DNA of 10,388 nucleotides from Planctomycetes bacterium RBG_16_41_13 (lineage in GTDB: Bacteria; Planctomycetota; Brocadiia; Brocadiales; Brocadiaceae): the NCBI GenBank assembly GCA_001828295.1, contig MHYI01000002.1:1-10388 (forward strand), read 5' to 3'. Positions within the stretch are counted from its first letter, which is position 1; every line of letters begins with the position of its first letter. Below are positions 189-9,451 of this stretch, one piece after another. The notes beneath the pieces are model-generated. The model did no database searches, was not told the DNA's origin, and worked only from the letters and a program-made list of their open reading frames with translations. The position numbers were made by a program, and so were the translations under genes.

Positions 189-2705
189 ATGAAAATATTT
201 CTTCCTATTTGTATTGCTACCCTGAGTATAGTCGAAGGGTCTGTATGTTTCTCCCAGCAAAACATTTCCTGCAAACACCTCAAACAAATGGATAATGTAA
301 AATGGCTAATGGCTAATGGAAATACATCAACCATTAACCATCAACCATTAACCATTGAACACCCTTCTCTCCTTGCCGATTCCCTCCGCAGCGACACCAT
401 CAACATCCTCAAATACACCATCAATCTTCAGATAACCGATTTCTCCGCGCCCGATACCATCTGGGGAAACACACAGGTTCAGTTCACTCCTTTAGTAAAT
501 AACATCAGCACACTTTCTTTGGACCTTCTCCGCATGACCATTGATTCCATTTCTCAGAACAATACCCTTCTTACCTATTCATATAACGATACACTGCTCA
601 TTGTAAACCTTCCTTCCGTTCATAACATAGGAGATACTTCAGTAGCAACCGTGTATTATCATGGCGACCCCGTAATGGATGCTTCCGGCTGGGGCGGATG
701 GTACAATCAAAGCGGTTATGCTTTCAATCTCGGAGTCGGTTTTGCGGCAGACCCGCACAATTACGGAAGAGTTTGGTTTCCCTGCTTCGATAATTTTGTA
801 GAGCGCAGCAAATACGAGTTCAACATAAAAACCAATGGCGGAAAAATTGCCTACTGCAATGGCGCGCTCACAAAAGACACTACCGATGTAAATGGATTCC
901 GCACCCGCACCTGGAAGCTGAATGAAGAAATTCCCACTTACCTCGCCTGTGTGAACGTAGCCGCTTACACGCACGTGAACCAAACTTTCAACGGAATCAA
1001 CGGAGCGGTTCCCGTAATGCTCACAGCTCTTCCTGCCGATACCGCAAACATGAAAAACTCTTTCGTCAATCTTGCTGGCGCTTTTGCCGCTTATGAAAAT
1101 CGTTACGGTTCTTTCTTGTGGAACAAAGTGGGCTACTCGCTCGTTCCCTTTTCTTCCGGAGCCATGGAACACGCCACCAACATTGCTTATCCGCGCATTG
1201 CTGCGCTCGGAAATCTCACGTATCAGGACATCATGGCGCACGAGTTTTCTCATCACTGGTGGGGCGACCTCGCCACCTGCGATAAGCAAGAAGATATGTG
1301 GATTAACGAAGGCATGGCGGTGTTTTCAGAATACATTTTTGAAGAATGGGTGAACGGAATAACCGCTTACAAAAATCAAGTCCGCGCCAATCACGATGAT
1401 ATGGTTCATTACGTGCACATTCGCGAAGGTGGATACAGAGCAATTTCAGGAATACCCGGTTCCCTCACCTATGGCGACCACGTTTATCTGAAAGGTTCTG
1501 ATGTGGCTCACACCATGCGCGGTTACCTGGGCGATTCTCTTTTCTTTCTCGGGCTGAAATATGTGTTGGCAAATCATCAGTTCACCGATATCAACAGCGC
1601 CAAGTTCCGCGATTTCATGACCACGGCAACAGGCGTGAACATGACAGATTTTTTCAGCGGATGGGTGTTCAACGGTGGCTGGCCTCACTTCTCCGTTGAC
1701 TCTTTCACTTCTTTTCCCAACGGTGGAAATTATGACGTAACAATTTATATCAAACAGAAACTGGATGGAGCGCCTTCTTTCTTCAACAATGTTCCGCTCG
1801 AAATCACTTTCAAAGATGCAAGCTGGAACGAAGTTGCGAAAACAATAAACGTATCAGGACAAAACACAACTGCAACGGTTACCATTCCCTTCAATCCCGC
1901 CTTTGTCGGAGTGGACCTCAACGAAAAAATTTCTGATGCAATTACTTCGGATACAAAAAAGATAAAAACAACCGGAACTTCCTTTGGCACTACGGCAAAC
2001 GGCAGAATGCAAATCAGCGTGCTGGCAATCACACCGGGCGATTCTGCTTTCGTTCTTGTAGAACACAACTGGGCTGCGCCCGATTCTTTCAAAACACCAA
2101 ACCCTGATTACAAACTTTCTCCTTATCACTATTGGAAAGTAAGCGGATTATTTCCGGCTCTTTTTGATGCAACCGGAACTATTACCTACGATGGAAGAAC
2201 AACAGGAACAAGCGGAGGGAACTATTACCTCGACCATCAGCTTATCACCGCCACCAATCAGGAAGACAGCATTGTTCTTATGTACCGCAAAGATGCTGCT
2301 GATGAGTGGAACTGGTTTCCTTATTACACTAAAACCATGGGCAATCTCACCGACAAGACAGGCACAATAAAAATTGATTCGCTCTTGCCCGGAGAATATA
2401 CTATTGCCTTCGCTTATCTTCTCAATAACGCAGTTGCAGAAAATGAAAATGAAACTTCAGTTCTCGTTTATCCGAATCCTTTCAGCACCTCAGCAACCCT
2501 AGAAATTAATTTCCCCTTAATAAAGGGAGCGAAGGGGGATGCTGTATTTGTGATGTATGATGTTTACGGAAGAGAAATGATGCGGTTACCGATTACTTGT
2601 TACCGATTACCGATTACACGGGGCAACCTCGCAAGCGGATTTTATTTCTACAAATTGCAGTCAAATGATGAAATGATTGGCTCAGGGAAAATTATTATTG
2701 AATAA
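189..2705 (+). CDS. Exported M1-family zinc metallopeptidase (aminopeptidase N-like) with T9SS sorting domain
   Basis: This 838-aa protein should remove N-terminal residues from peptides outside the cell or at the surface. It carries the M1 zinc site HEFSH at residues 351-355 with the third ligand Glu374 in INEGMA, 18 residues after the second His. The exopeptidase motif appears as GAMEH at 324-328 (usual form GAMEN), and Tyr433 in VYLKG fits the transition-state tyrosine. Residues 1 to about 22 form a signal peptide, 65-260 the N-terminal beta domain, and 270-500 the thermolysin-like catalytic domain. A T9SS C-terminal domain starts at YPNPF (761-765) and ends GSGKIIIE. The ATG at 189 is chosen because the signal peptide follows at once. 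Oddities are three in-frame low-complexity repeats, one within the signal peptide. The fold and family are clear; the substrate range is not. Confidence 0.93.
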   Translation: MKIFLPICIATLSIVEGSVCFSQQNISCKHLKQMDNVKWLMANGNTSTINHQPLTIEHPSLLADSLRSDTINILKYTINLQITDFSAPDTIWGNTQVQFTPLVNNISTLSLDLLRMTIDSISQNNTLLTYSYNDTLLIVNLPSVHNIGDTSVATVYYHGDPVMDASGWGGWYNQSGYAFNLGVGFAADPHNYGRVWFPCFDNFVERSKYEFNIKTNGGKIAYCNGALTKDTTDVNGFRTRTWKLNEEIPTYLACVNVAAYTHVNQTFNGINGAVPVMLTALPADTANMKNSFVNLAGAFAAYENRYGSFLWNKVGYSLVPFSSGAMEHATNIAYPRIAALGNLTYQDIMAHEFSHHWWGDLATCDKQEDMWINEGMAVFSEYIFEEWVNGITAYKNQVRANHDDMVHYVHIREGGYRAISGIPGSLTYGDHVYLKGSDVAHTMRGYLGDSLFFLGLKYVLANHQFTDINSAKFRDFMTTATGVNMTDFFSGWVFNGGWPHFSVDSFTSFPNGGNYDVTIYIKQKLDGAPSFFNNVPLEITFKDASWNEVAKTINVSGQNTTATVTIPFNPAFVGVDLNEKISDAITSDTKKIKTTGTSFGTTANGRMQISVLAITPGDSAFVLVEHNWAAPDSFKTPNPDYKLSPYHYWKVSGLFPALFDATGTITYDGRTTGTSGGNYYLDHQLITATNQEDSIVLMYRKDAADEWNWFPYYTKTMGNLTDKTGTIKIDSLLPGEYTIAFAYLLNNAVAENENETSVLVYPNPFSTSATLEINFPLIKGAKGDAVFVMYDVYGREMMRLPITCYRLPITRGNLASGFYFYKLQSNDEMIGSGKIIIE
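219..240. repeat. Short interspersed palindrome inside the signal-peptide coding region
   Basis: The segment ends ACCCT (219-223) and AGGGT (236-240) with an imperfect stem. The core CTGAGTATAGTCGAAGGG resembles the CCCTGAGC...GTCGAAGGG motif that I recall as scattered through many Bacteroidota and other bacterial genomes. Here it lies in frame and encodes TLSIVEGS (residues 11-18), putting a glutamate in what should be the hydrophobic core of the signal peptide. That it was inserted is an inference from the motif and the unusual residue. Confidence 0.5.
302..356. repeat. In-frame short tandem and inverted repeat after the signal peptide
   Basis: The left part (302-319) is ATGGCTA repeated at a 7-bp period. 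The right part (331-356) is CAACCATTAACCAT repeated at a 14-bp period. The second left copy (309-319) can pair with CCATTAACCAT (331-341), giving an 11-bp stem with one mismatch and an 11-nt loop. It encodes residues 38-56 of the peptidase, a low-complexity linker between the signal peptide and the first beta domain, so it is tolerated. Confidence 0.6.
2511..2618. repeat. Two low-complexity repeat insertions in the T9SS sorting domain
   Basis: At 2511-2538 a palindrome-like stretch (CCCCTTAATAAAGGG followed by AGCGAAGGGGG) encodes FPLIKGAKG near residues 775-783. At 2584-2618 the sequence repeats GTTACCGATTAC with a further ACCGATTAC, encoding the duplicated peptide RLPIT around residues 799-810. 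The second lies in the turn between the GREM strand and the GFYF strand. Both stay in frame and neither breaks the conserved strands of the domain. Confidence 0.6.
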
Positions 2706-2740
2706 TTTGTAACCTAACCACCTTCTTATCGTAAGCGCAA

Positions 2741-2787
2741 AATCAAAAGAGGTGCATTCTTTTTAATTTTTGATTATTGAGTGCACC
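2741..2787 (+). other. Interleaved inverted repeats after the peptidase gene
   Basis: Two perfect stems interleave. AATCAAAA (2741-2748) can pair with TTTTGATT (2768-2775), and GGTGCA (2751-2756) with TGCACC (2782-2787). The order of the four arms is that of an H-type pseudoknot or of two alternative hairpins. It begins 36 bp after the stop codon, so it may be the 3' end or terminator of the peptidase transcript, but the stems are short and AT-rich and no T-tract follows directly. Confidence 0.3.
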
Positions 2788-2829
2788 ACATTTGCTTTTG
2801 CTATAATCCTGCAAATAAAAAACATTCCA

Positions 2830-2837
2830 TACCTTTG
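2830..2837 (+). promoter_or_regulatory. Possible Bacteroidota -7 promoter box
   Basis: TACCTTTG matches the Bacteroidota primary-sigma -7 consensus TAnnTTTG exactly. No good TTG sits at the usual -33 spacing; CTG at 2809-2811 is the nearest, with an 18-bp spacer. If used, transcription would begin near 2844, ahead of the structured RNA candidate at about 2900. Confidence 0.35.
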
Positions 2838-2899
2838 AACACAATAACAAAAAAATATGTAATAGATTTTAATAAATAAAATATAGCGTTAGATATTCT

Positions 2900-3040
2900 C
2901 GCTTAGGAAACCGCAAATTTTCAGTTACACGAGGATAGATTCAAACGCTCACGAAAGGCGTGGGCTTTTGGTTTGTCTGTGTAACGAGTGCTTTGCGGTA
3001 CTTCTAAGCAGATGGGCTGAATGTCCCACGCTGTTTTTTT
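2900..3040 (+). ncRNA. Candidate structured RNA with pseudoknot-like pairing and T-tract end
   Basis: Long-range complementary arms nest in order. GCTTAG (2901-2906) pairs with CTAAGC (3004-3009), extendable by a G-U and an A-U pair. ACCGCAAA (2910-2917) pairs with TTTGCGGT (2992-2999), and GTTACAC (2924-2930) pairs with GTGTAAC (2979-2985). Inside this hairpin, GCTCACG (2947-2953) can pair with CGTGGGC (2959-2965) over an AAAGG loop. GCGTGGG (2958-2964) is also a perfect match to CCCACGC (3025-3031), which lies outside the main hairpin and just before a run of seven T (3034-3040). A local stem TGGG (3013-3016) with CCCA (3025-3028) competes for the same bases. Three nested perfect helices plus a mutually exclusive 7-bp pairing next to a T-tract suggest a folded RNA ending at an intrinsic terminator. 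I do not recognise the family. It could be a small RNA, a cis-regulatory leader or an omega-like guide RNA remnant. Confidence 0.6.
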
Positions 3041-3064
3041 ATTCCACCTCAAAAAAGTATTCAC

Positions 3065-3361
3065 ATGAAAACACGAATAACAATACTATGGGAAGAAATA
3101 AATTTCTATCAAAACCAAAATATAACATACAAAGCAGAAGATGTATCAAGAAAAAAAATACGAAAAGAACCACTGAATGAAAAAAAGATAAAGGAGAATG
3201 AAGAACGAATCGAAAAATTATTCTCTGCAATCATGAATTATTGAAGAAACTTGGTCGTTAAAAATCATTCATTCGCAGATGATTTTAATGAATCTGCCGA
3301 ATATATTGACAAAGCCTTGACTAATCAAAATTCATTACCAACCTTTACCCCCTCATTTTAG
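3065..3361 (+). pseudogene. Small ORF interrupted by one in-frame TGA, unknown product
   Basis: An ATG at 3065 opens a 59-codon frame (MKTRITILWEEINFYQNQ at the start, then a Lys/Glu-rich stretch) ending at TGA 3242-3244. The same frame continues without further stops to a TAG at 3359-3361, encoding another 38 residues, including the amphipathic segment FADDFNESAEYIDKAL. Read through, it would be a protein of about 98 residues, mostly helical and charged. Both halves look protein-like, so a decayed gene, a sequencing error, or just a 59-aa gene are all possible. The ATG has no clear ribosome binding site. It lies between the RNA candidate and the SBBP gene and resembles no family I know. Confidence 0.3.
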
Positions 3362-3386
3362 ATTAATAAACTTAAATCATCTCACC

Positions 3387-6374
3387 ATGAAAAAAATTTA
3401 CTCACTCATCGTGGCAGTTTTGTTTTGCAATGCAAATTTAAAAGCCCAATGCTCCTGCACCTGTGGCACGGCACTTCCTATTACTCCCGCAAACACTTGC
3501 AACTTCACAACCCATACCACTTCTTCCTCTGGAGATCAAATATGGTTTTCATTCACAGCGCAAAGCGCTGATGTATCCATCATGCTCATCAATCAAAATA
3601 TTTTCGGAGTAAATGCCCCGCACATTCACAACCTTGCATTGTACGGTGGCACATGCAGCAATCTCACGCCCATTGCCGATGACGAACTGCCTTTTGTAAA
3701 TAAAGCCGACACCCTTGCCATTGACCTTGATGCTTCCGGTTTAACAGTAGGCACTACCTATTATATACGTGCCTTGCGAACAACATCAGTGATAGGTCCT
3801 CAATGCCCCAAAGTAAACTGCACCACCAACGGCAGCACTACTCCCTCCACTTTTAATTTATGCGTAGAGAATGTTAATGTAATCATCCCAAAAGATTTCG
3901 GGTTGGAATTACCAGCCATGAGCCATGCGTATTATCAAAATCGCGGGCAGTTAGTAGATGTAAACGGCAACCCCCGCCCTGATATAAAACTCTACACCGC
4001 AAATTCTTCACCTGCCGTTTACATAGCAAATGATTTTGTTTCTTATGTGTATGCCTCAATAGATACTATTGCCACTACCGTAGATACCTTGCACCGTGTG
4101 GACATGACTTTAGTGGGAGCAAACCCCACCCGCACATTCAAAACAGAAAAAGTTCCTGACGTATTAAATTACTATCTCGCGCACATCCCAAAGGGAGTAA
4201 CAGGCAACAAAGGATTTTCTCGTGCTGTGCAAAACGATGTTTATCCCAACATTGATATGCAGTTTTACAGCAACAATACGGGCATAAAATTTTATTTTAT
4301 TGTAAAGCCCGGAGGCAATGCCGATAACATTGTTCTCAACTTTGCAGGTGCAAACTCAGTGAATGTAACAGCCAGCGGTGGCTTAGATGTTGTTACCTCT
4401 CTCGGCACATTAAACTTTGACCCCGCCCATGCCTATCAGATAAATCCCGCTGGTCAAATAGTTCCCATGCCCTGGCAGGCGGAGTTCATTCAACTCTCGT
4501 CCACTCAGGTAAAATTTGACATTCGCAACTATCCCGCAAACATGCCCCTCTTTATTCAGGTGGATAGGGGGCATGTTTACTGCAATACTTATTCCTCTAT
4601 GGATAATTTAAGATGGAGTACGTTCTATGGTGCACCATATCACGACCAGATTAATTGTTCCGCTACCAATGCCGCAGGTGAATTATTTGTTGCGGGATAT
4701 GACGAAAGCAATGTGTTTCCCGTTACAGGGGGTCAATCAAATACTTGGGGAGATAGAACAGCTACAATCTTAAAGTTTCTTGCTACAGGAGTAAGAACAT
4801 CGGCAACATATTATGGCGGTTCATCTAATGATGAAGCGCTTGGGATTACAGTAAGCGGAAACGGAGTAACAGTTGTCGGATACACCGGCAGCAGTGATTT
4901 TCCACCGCCAACAAACACAGGAGTTCAATATGCGCAAACTTATGTAGGTGGCGTGGATGGATTCATTATCAGGCTGACTTCAACTGGTTTGGTTTGGTCT
5001 ACTTTATATGGACTAAGTGGATTGGAAAAATTCAATGATGTAAAAGTTATTGGCGGAAATACGATTATTGTTGGTATGGCTGATTCATCCGAAGTCATGC
5101 AGGGGCAATTAGGCGCTTACAATCAAAACACCACATTCGGTCAACAATATGGAGGTATCATTCTTAAATTTAATTCCCAGGATTCATTGATATGGTCAAC
5201 TTTTTTGGGAGGAGAAGCCACTGCTTTAACCGCAAACGCTGCCAATTTTTATGTCACAGGAGTAGTTAAGGATAATAATCTGCCCAATAGAAATATCCTG
5301 GGTGGGTATCGAGACAGCACACTGAATGGAAACAGCGATGCTTTCTTTGCAAAATTTACTATGACCGATGATTTAACATGGTGCACCTATTATGGTGGTT
5401 CTTCCGATGAAACAGGGCAGGGAATCGCAGTGGACAGTAAAGGAAATATGTATGCCACAGGGTTCACAAAAAGCAATGACCTGCCACTGAAGGATGCGTT
5501 AGGCGGAGCATATTTTGATAATACTTTTAACGGAGGGAATTATGCTAATACCGACCCAATGCTTTTTAAATTTGATTCCAAAGACCTTCGCGTATGGGCT
5601 ACCTATTATAGCGGAGCAAGTGTGGGGAAAGCGGCTATAGCCGATGATGAAGGAATAGATGTGGCTATTGACGGTCACGACAACGTGTATTTTATGGGCA
5701 TCACCTACTCATGCTACGGTAGTAGCCCGACTGCTGGATTTGACCAATTAGCATATCCTCCATCAGTATTTCCTCAATGGTGGAATGGCCCATGTAGTTC
5801 TAATTTTTCTCCTCAGAATTCTGAAACATATCTTGCCATGTTCACTTCTTCGCTTAAATATACATGGGGTTCGGGTTTCGGAGGACCCTTTTATGAAGAT
5901 GGCGCTTCAATTTCAATTTCAGGCAATCAGTGGCTATATCTTGTTGGAGGGTCAAACAGTATGCAGGTTAATTATGCTGTTACCCCGCAAATTCCGGTGA
6001 CAAGCGTTTGGTACAAATGTGAAAATGCAGCATTAAGCACGGCATCAAAGGATGGATTCATTTGCCAATTCAATATCTCTGCTGCGCCTAATGGAATTGC
6101 AGAACTTTCTGACAATGACGAATCGCTAAACATATACCCAAACCCTGCGAATCAGCAAATAACAGTCGAGTTCAATTCCCAAGGCAGCGAAGATATTTAC
6201 ATAACCGCGTACAATAATTTAGGGCAGCAAGTGTTTACAGAAAAAGAAAAGTCACGAAATCCCGGAATAAAAAAGAAAAACATAAATGTAAACGGATGGA
6301 GCGAAGGCATGTATTTTATTCAGGTGAAAGAAGGTAGCAAAATAATATCCGGTAAATTGATAAAGATTTTATAA
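3387..6374 (+). CDS. T9SS-exported SBBP-repeat beta-propeller protein
   Basis: This 995-aa surface or secreted protein has a signal peptide at residues 1-20 (MKKIYSLIVAVLFCNANLKA). A Cys-rich CSCTCGT start and a beta domain resembling a pre-peptidase C-terminal (PPC) domain follow at about 25-165. A conserved region with YYQNRGQL (about 180-405) matches the DUF7948-type domain that usually precedes SBBP repeats. SBBP-like blades follow, opening WSTFYG, WSTLYG, WSTFLGG, WCTYYGG and WATYYSG at Trp410, 537, 603, 665 and 737, often with GNxYxxG strands behind them. The T9SS sorting domain starts at NIYPNPA (915) and ends SGKLIKIL. Proteins of this type are thought to bind surfaces or ligands; no catalytic residues are apparent. 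It lies 2 bp upstream of the next gene, so the two are probably co-transcribed. Its sorting domain is the only one of four here without a short tandem repeat. Confidence 0.88.
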   Translation: MKKIYSLIVAVLFCNANLKAQCSCTCGTALPITPANTCNFTTHTTSSSGDQIWFSFTAQSADVSIMLINQNIFGVNAPHIHNLALYGGTCSNLTPIADDELPFVNKADTLAIDLDASGLTVGTTYYIRALRTTSVIGPQCPKVNCTTNGSTTPSTFNLCVENVNVIIPKDFGLELPAMSHAYYQNRGQLVDVNGNPRPDIKLYTANSSPAVYIANDFVSYVYASIDTIATTVDTLHRVDMTLVGANPTRTFKTEKVPDVLNYYLAHIPKGVTGNKGFSRAVQNDVYPNIDMQFYSNNTGIKFYFIVKPGGNADNIVLNFAGANSVNVTASGGLDVVTSLGTLNFDPAHAYQINPAGQIVPMPWQAEFIQLSSTQVKFDIRNYPANMPLFIQVDRGHVYCNTYSSMDNLRWSTFYGAPYHDQINCSATNAAGELFVAGYDESNVFPVTGGQSNTWGDRTATILKFLATGVRTSATYYGGSSNDEALGITVSGNGVTVVGYTGSSDFPPPTNTGVQYAQTYVGGVDGFIIRLTSTGLVWSTLYGLSGLEKFNDVKVIGGNTIIVGMADSSEVMQGQLGAYNQNTTFGQQYGGIILKFNSQDSLIWSTFLGGEATALTANAANFYVTGVVKDNNLPNRNILGGYRDSTLNGNSDAFFAKFTMTDDLTWCTYYGGSSDETGQGIAVDSKGNMYATGFTKSNDLPLKDALGGAYFDNTFNGGNYANTDPMLFKFDSKDLRVWATYYSGASVGKAAIADDEGIDVAIDGHDNVYFMGITYSCYGSSPTAGFDQLAYPPSVFPQWWNGPCSSNFSPQNSETYLAMFTSSLKYTWGSGFGGPFYEDGASISISGNQWLYLVGGSNSMQVNYAVTPQIPVTSVWYKCENAALSTASKDGFICQFNISAAPNGIAELSDNDESLNIYPNPANQQITVEFNSQGSEDIYITAYNNLGQQVFTEKEKSRNPGIKKKNINVNGWSEGMYFIQVKEGSKIISGKLIKIL

Positions 6375-8780: not shown

Positions 8781-8957
8781 GCTGGCGGTGGATGTCATTT
8801 TTAACGAAAAAACACCACTTTACCCCATCTTGACCATACTTTACCCCATCTTGACCGTACTTTACCCCATCTTGACCATACTTTACCCAATCTTGACCGT
8901 ACTATAGCCCATCTTGCCTCTACGATAGCCAATCTTGTTGACACTATGTCATACCTG

Positions 8958-8975
8958 CCCCGCAGCATTGCGGGG
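8958..8975. repeat. GC hairpin in register with the array, copy 1
   Basis: CCCCGCA and TGCGGGG form a 7-bp perfect stem over the loop GCAT. It is flanked by CTG on both sides and sits where CTTGAC cores would be. The 21-bp register is unbroken across it. Confidence 0.8.
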
Positions 8976-9020
8976 TCTGACCGTACTTTGTCATATCTTG
9001 ACCATACTATAGCGCACCTG

Positions 9021-9038
9021 CCCCGCACTTTTGCGGGG
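9021..9038. repeat. GC hairpin in register with the array, copy 2
   Basis: It has the same stem as copy 1 with the loop CTTT, exactly 63 bp (three units) downstream. The conserved stem with a different loop, and the matching flanks, point to a diverged 63-bp higher-order duplication or to two insertions at the same unit position. Confidence 0.8.
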
Positions 9039-9232
9039 TCTGCCTCTACTATAGAACATCTTGACTCTACTATAGCGCATCTTGACTGTACTTTTGAACA
9101 CCTTGACTCTACTATAGCCCATCTTTTCCCGACTATTTCGCACATGGACAGTACTTTCGCCAATCTTGACCGCACTATAACGGATCTTCACTGGACTATT
9201 GAGCATCTATTTCTGACTATTAAGCATCTTGA

Positions 9233-9451
9233 CAAAACTTTCCCGCATCTAACGGTCAGTTTACAGTTTACAGTTTAAAGCTCACAGTATATGATGTTGA
9301 AATTTATAATACACTCGGAGAGGTTGTTTATCATAAAACCGTAAACAGTAAACAGGAGAGCATAAACCTGAATGTGCCTGGTGGCATTTATTTCTACAAG
9401 CTCCTATCTCCAGATGAAGAAATAGCGACTGGAAAGATGCTGATACAGTAG
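9233..9451 (+). pseudogene. Orphan T9SS C-terminal sorting domain, gene body missing
   Basis: This frame opens after a TGA at 9230-9232 and ends at TAG 9449-9451. It encodes VEIYNTLGEVVYHKTVNSKQ, then INLNVPGGIYFYKLL and ATGKMLIQ, the second half of a type-A T9SS sorting domain with its hallmark GxYF and basic tail. The first part (YPNP) and any catalytic or binding body are absent, and there is no start codon. It follows directly on the 21-bp array, whose heptad frame is one 7-bp repeat unit out of phase with it. It is most likely the 3' remnant of a secreted-protein gene whose front was lost or replaced. Confidence 0.7.
9257..9277. repeat. Three perfect copies of the heptanucleotide CAGTTTA
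   Basis: Three exact tandem copies join the array to the orphan sorting domain. A related but not identical heptamer, GTAAACA, occurs twice at 9341-9354 in the turn of the same domain. A 7-bp unit changes reading frame with each copy gained or lost, and one added copy would fuse the heptad frame to the sorting domain. Confidence 0.85.

Follow-up and report, generated by a model that had tools for sequence, protein, structure and literature searches.

In trp-type attenuators, regions 1:2, 2:3 and 3:4 of the leader pair in mutually exclusive combinations, and in the UpxY system of Bacteroides capsule operons a NusG paralogue is encoded as the first gene of its own operon. HEARO (omega) RNA adjoins a gene for an IscB/TnpB-type nuclease. 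Palindromic RNA candidates from Bacteroidetes include HMP2_4205, HMP2_1032 and HMP2_1065 (132, 106 and 80 bp), which are described as predicted Rho-independent terminators with a possible role in gene control, and HMP_4078 (PMC8040213). Here we describe a structured RNA element in a 10,388-base stretch of contig MHYI01000002.1 (the window), located in the intergenic gap between an M1 peptidase gene (189–2705) and an SBBP gene (3387–6374). Covariation of two sets of pairings indicates two mutually exclusive folds, both under selection. We read the element as an attenuator of transcription that acts in cis from the 5' leader of the gene behind it, here an open reading frame (ORF) of 59 amino acids (aa) at 3065–3244, and assign this reading a probability of about 0.64. 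The element is apparently an undescribed, widespread Bacteroidota RNA.

Alternative pairings and their covariation

The first-pass annotation had marked 2887..3042 as a candidate structured RNA; the structure proved real, with a start slightly further upstream at 2885 (Table 1). The minimum free energy (MFE) of 2887–3042 is −57.9 kcal/mol; 200 dinucleotide shuffles average −37.4 (standard deviation (sd) 3.65), and none is as low (z −5.6). This value together with covariation in homologues bears out the proposed complementarity beyond chance. The three nested perfect helices of 6, 8 and 7 bp (P2, P3 and P4) are all found in the sequence, as is the perfect 7-bp pairing of GCGTGGG 2958–2964 with CCCACGC 3025–3031. 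The latter forms the base of a terminator-like hairpin, Y:Z (7+1+14 bp, −36.7 kcal/mol in the isolated fold of 2958–3033), and TGGG 3013–3016 is, as suggested, able to pair locally with CCCA 3025–3028. The postulated inner hairpin exists, but in a register shifted by one base: GCTCACG 2947–2953 pairs with CGTGGGC 2959–2965.

Two relatives whose arginase is 88% identical were reached through that of the window. BLAST of eight such genomes identified two unambiguous copies, both in one genome, and in another genome a third, found via its inner part; the first four sequences showed two-sided changes at 16 of 45 pairs. Search model R1 matched in four of seven genomes of the family, and model R2 (12 sequences) in at least 108 of the 395 genomes sampled from the class, with only seven candidates per genome scored. 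Model R3 (92 sequences), applied to 395 genomes sampled phylum-wide, matched in 65; of 24 genomes to which named loci led, 15 had matches, including several named Pedobacter genomes, in which bench testing is thus possible. The cultured environmental species Pedobacter hiemivivus (locus L016, genome G403) has four matches. Sixteen positive genomes searched more deeply had 1–14 matches each, a range that includes one reverse-strand echo, counted for G002; weak hits of the palindromic model on the reverse strand (three in one search) were removed by a stricter cut-off. Two viral-contig matches to the exact pattern were attributed to chance, since one (L002) lies within an open frame, as judged by eye, and the other (L001) shares only a 17-base match. 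A 20-base pattern had no match in genome contigs, and BLAST of the element and its relatives against plasmids and phages returned one 37-base match at E 0.5 and nothing else. Short BLAST matches in L005 and L029 were dropped as apparently coding sequence (by eye). Subsequent comparisons used a discovery set of 92 copies and a separate held-out set of 50 copies.

Strand pairings were evaluated by an energy test of matched versus swapped strands. The z values (discovery set; held-out set) were −15.6 and −13.0 for W:X, −17.6 and −13.4 for Y:Z, −37.3 and −23.6 for P2, −26.4 and −16.2 for P3, −36.6 and −21.6 for P4, and −15.2 and −10.2 for X:Y, the held-out X:Y value not being independent because X:Y is part of the search model. 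The helices and the 2958/3025-type pairing therefore covary in homologues, and the earlier claim that the terminator-proximal and inner strands have two partners each is upheld in both sets. A W:Z stem closing head on tail, present in the consensus models, was rejected: the energy test gave it no support in either set, although a cruder count placed it just above its swapped strands. The two folds are close in energy: the mean summed energy of the two-hairpin state is −46.9 kcal/mol, or −56.8 kcal/mol with a kiss between the P3 strands, compared with −60.4 kcal/mol for the whole-element MFE.

A pseudoknot-type pairing is present as well, AGT 2987–2989 with ACT 3000–3002 (a:a'), which the first-pass annotation had not named; the 2958/3025 pairing that it had described is the base of the terminator-like hairpin. 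The a:a' pairing joins the three bases directly 5' of the P3 3' strand with the three directly 3' of it. Of the 92 copies, 89 form three Watson-Crick pairs with a spacer of 0–3 nucleotides (nt), using eight pair types, whereas shuffling yields 49.6 on average and 59 at most. In the held-out set 42 of 50 do so, against 27.0 on average and 37 at most after shuffling; with G-U pairs included, all 50 held-out copies qualify (shuffled mean 42.5, max 47). In isolated folds of Y to Z, the a and a' bases lie within a small stem inside the terminator-like hairpin; this small stem is predicted to be longer than a:a' and mostly leaves four loop bases.

Table 1. Features of the RNA element and its flanks in the window.
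Feature	Position	Strand	Remarks
Putative promoter -7 box	2830..2837	+	TACCTTTG; Bacteroidota consensus TAnnTTTG
Minimal upstream ORF	2857..2862	+	ATGTAA (start-stop); significance uncertain
Core structured RNA element	2885..3033	+	Boundaries from models R1/R2; 132.9 bits with R2; this copy belongs to the sequences from which R1 and R2 were built
Strand W (5' end)	2885..2901	+	Pairs with X in the two-hairpin state; AGCGTT:AACGCT and TATTCTCG:CGAGGATA
P2 5' strand	2901..2908	+	Pairs with 3002-3009; core GCTTAG 2901-2906 / CTAAGC 3004-3009
P3 5' strand	2910..2917	+	ACCGCAAA; pairs with TTTGCGGT 2992-2999
P4 5' strand	2924..2930	+	GTTACAC; pairs with GTGTAAC 2979-2985
Strand X (5' of apex)	2930..2953	+	Partner W or Y
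Strand Y (3' of apex)	2958..2980	+	Partner X or Z
Pseudoknot strand a	2987..2989	+	AGT; pairs with a' across the P3 3' strand
Pseudoknot strand a'	3000..3002	+	ACT; pairs with a
Strand Z (3' end)	3008..3031	+	Partner Y (terminator-like stem) or downstream strand D
U-tract of putative intrinsic terminator	3034..3040	+	Seven T, beginning two bases past the last paired base
Weak strand D candidate	3057..3062	+	GTATTC with GAATGT of Z; many relatives have a stronger D
59-aa ORF	3065..3244	+	Starts 31 nt past the element; same small protein behind two other copies

Leader layout and proposed mechanism

The motif TAnnTTTG is the Bacteroidota promoter -7 consensus (PMC9723704). Of the 92 copies, 70 have it no more than 110 nt upstream of the element, whereas mononucleotide shuffles give 6.3 on average and 14 at most; most motif positions (52 of 78) lie 54–74 nt before the element. 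In the held-out set 35 of 50 copies have it, against 5.0 on average and 11 at most after shuffling, and many of the held-out boxes are only ~30 nt upstream. At the other end, T frequency reaches 81–92% at positions +2 to +7 past the element. Within the first 16 nt, 64 of 91 copies have a run of at least five T (27 lack one); in five other 16-nt windows the count is 0–10 of 91. Among the held-out copies, 33 of 50 have the run. One of the two folds thus has the attenuator trait of a GC-rich hairpin followed by a U-tract.

A second trait of attenuators, a position between promoter and same-strand start codon, is seen in the discovery set, where 78 of 90 copies are followed at 4–110 nt by the start of a same-strand ORF (mirror control: 15 of 90), with peaks at 25–39 and 45–59 nt. 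Judged by position, copies are leaders of the gene behind them more frequently than they are stand-alone RNAs. The held-out copies show this trait more weakly: the near range contains a same-strand start in 19 of 50 (2 of 50 in the mirror control), and a count without mirror control found the first ORF to share the element's strand in 47 of 50, but its start to lie more than 200 nt away in 24 of 50. Because of these distant first starts we lowered the reading as an attenuator of the next gene slightly and raised its rival, a terminated, trans-acting small RNA. The unit from promoter to U-tract would then be independent, and Z would pair with D-like sites in its own and other mRNA leaders; we consider this unlikely. 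Control of translation or RNA stability, in which the folds would alter the access of ribosomes or processing by RNase III, with the U-tract as a linker, is quite unlikely: the GC-rich Y:Z stem directly before the conserved U-tract is arranged like an intrinsic terminator, and the start codon is mostly 25–60 nt past the element, hence uncovered by most of the fold.

In the attenuator model, transcription would start from the TAnnTTTG promoter. In the ON state, X would pair with Y and the duplex would continue via P4, P3 and P2 as a single long hairpin; Z would be free or bound to the downstream strand D, leaving no strong hairpin at the U-tract, and polymerase would read through. In the OFF state, W:X and Y:Z would form, with Y:Z abutting the U-tract as an intrinsic terminator at which we infer that transcription ends. 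The a:a' stem, placed inside the Y:Z hairpin, would expose the 3' strand of P3 to its 5' partner in the loop of W:X. The small stem of the isolated folds would presumably open enough for this loop kiss, with which P3 may exist in both states. The gene would be switched off by anything that favours W:X, be it a ligand, a protein, the speed of transcription or temperature, and switched on by anything that blocks W. When the window transcript was folded at increasing lengths from an assumed start at 2844, a thermodynamic rather than kinetic prediction, it formed W:X first (to 2970), then X:Y and P4 (2985), P3 (3000) and P2 (3012). This order suggests that the antiterminator may win by default, without a signal, and that a factor holding W:X would cause termination. 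Strand D is made after the U-tract and so could act only after readthrough.

Counterparts of the window's start-stop ORF, of the form ATG(X)stop, are present ~30 nt before the element in 33 of the 92 copies (dinucleotide shuffles: 12.8, sd 3.1, max 24), but the held-out count of 12 of 50 (8.0, sd 2.7, max 18) was not significant, and an upstream mini-ORF as sensor was rejected because its enrichment is confined to the discovery set. A scan for upstream ORFs (uORFs) with ATG starts found such frames closed within the scanned stretch in 60 of 92 copies. Of the 98 uORFs of this kind, 7 terminate within the element, and the ATG-start uORFs of the 92 copies yielded no conserved leader peptide that extends to region 1.

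Downstream genes and surroundings

A family of 58–59-aa proteins is encoded behind the RNA in the window, in L063 (6742–6918) and in L064 (4367–4546, L064(-) copy), so that RNA and ORF stay paired there. The window protein has three database proteins including itself, the other two being 61% identical, and no Pfam or PADLOC match. In L061 (3472–3622), an RNA 88% identical to that of the window precedes an unrelated 168-aa ORF; the leader therefore seems able to swap downstream partners. First genes also include type III Mod-Res operons (L062, L064), type IIG and type I methylases (L096, L100, L107), other methylases (L065, L104) and a NucS-like nuclease (L057), and among 74 first genes are four for response regulators, four for SBBP and two for laminin-G proteins. 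A signal-peptide-like N terminus, called by a simple hydrophobicity rule, was present in 32 of 49 first proteins of at least 150 aa versus 121 of 316 other ORFs. A defence-only leader, an idea from the first genomes, was ruled out by further copies with secreted proteins, response regulators and others. The element looks like a shared on/off switch for very different genes, namely secreted proteins, DNA restriction systems and regulators.

The restriction-type genes behind the RNA in L057 and L065 lie close to ORFs that read, by eye, like serine recombinases, resembling a mobile island. In seven held-out copies (L187, L189, L190, L195, L201, L205, L213), the first start is 215–250 nt downstream and belongs to one family of ~455-aa (open-ended) ORFs with the N terminus MN.FSF.K.G.ALYCL. 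That the element is mobile DNA (a MITE-, REP- or attC-like hairpin) and not RNA is highly improbable: its dispersed copies (1–14 matches per genome), the L061 case and the recombinase-like ORFs near some copies would fit, but its strand-specific position ahead of start codons, the polarity of promoter and U-tract and the chained exclusive pairings that covary speak against it, and it lacks, by eye, the R-box symmetry by which attC hairpins are defined, so that an integron attC site was rejected.

More speculatively, and in our view doubtfully, the copies might form a phylum-wide class of bistable, pseudoknotted riboregulators sensing one signal, perhaps envelope stress or phage infection, and switching restriction-modification, secreted or surface proteins and regulators together by termination via a five-strand exclusive chain. 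If the attenuator reading is right, one RNA class would gate DNA-restriction, secreted/lipoprotein and response-regulator genes in a large share of Bacteroidota. This would amount to a testable common control layer over surface and defence genes, and to an attenuator whose two competing folds are documented separately by evolution.

The window encodes Bacteroidota-type proteins. Pfam scanning of seven of them identified an M1 peptidase, T9SS tails, an SBBP/DUF7948 protein, DUF6242 and arginase; three were unmatched. A second hairpin (GGTGCATTC ... GAGTGCACC) at 2735–2806, between the M1 peptidase gene and the RNA promoter, is possibly the terminator of the peptidase gene and had Rfam matches only at E>1. 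Arrays of 21-nt tandem repeats at 8795–9251 and 1–147 correspond to seven-residue repeats in ORFs 8946–9278 and 1–192, and a comparable repetitive ORF, judged by eye, is found near the related copy in L063.

Comparison with described RNAs

Rfam 15 gave no match in the window at gathering score and only three sub-threshold matches in 2700–3400 (best E 1.5); on 20 loci it detected one tRNA only, both at the gathering threshold and at E≤1. The library, which includes HEARO, 6S-flavo, Flavo-1, Bacteroidales-1 and Pedo-repair, was searched whole and not family by family. The covariance-model check suggested by the first-pass annotation therefore yielded no known family, and HEARO, 6S and other Rfam families were rejected as its identity. 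The kinship with HEARO/omega RNA it had considered finds no support in the seven Pfam-scanned window proteins either, among which there is no nuclease or transposase domain.

In the literature searched, no RNA was recognisable as the element, supplementary alignments excepted. The GUCCY-hairpin motif of Bacteroidetes (PMC2864571) has a name resembling the AUGUCCC tail of the element. It and the HMP2 and HMP_4078 candidates were compared by description only, so that partial overlap is possible; the consulted parts of the sources mention no alternative folds for them, and 'pseudoknot' and 'attenuat' occur 0 times in PMC8040213. These short palindromic motifs (PMC8040213, PMC2864571) could be parts of the same RNA family.

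Like UpxY-dependent leaders, the element is a Bacteroidota 5' leader with premature termination, which here is putative. Unlike in that system, its first genes are diverse, and a NusG domain is not among the listed 25 of 36 Pfam families of the 74 first genes. With transcriptional riboswitches it shares a conserved fold and expression-platform logic ahead of genes, but it has no known ligand and its downstream genes have no evident common pathway. It matches no Rfam family by sequence and structure, and by its logic would be an attenuator: as in trp-type attenuators, a chain of exclusive pairings ends in a hairpin and U-tract ahead of a gene. The ribosome-mediated trp subtype finds no support, as no leader peptide overlapping region 1 was detected among the ATG starts. 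The element further differs from the trp type in an antiterminator that holds the conserved P2–P4 core and a pseudoknot, in a fifth strand, D, and in spanning more than one pathway.
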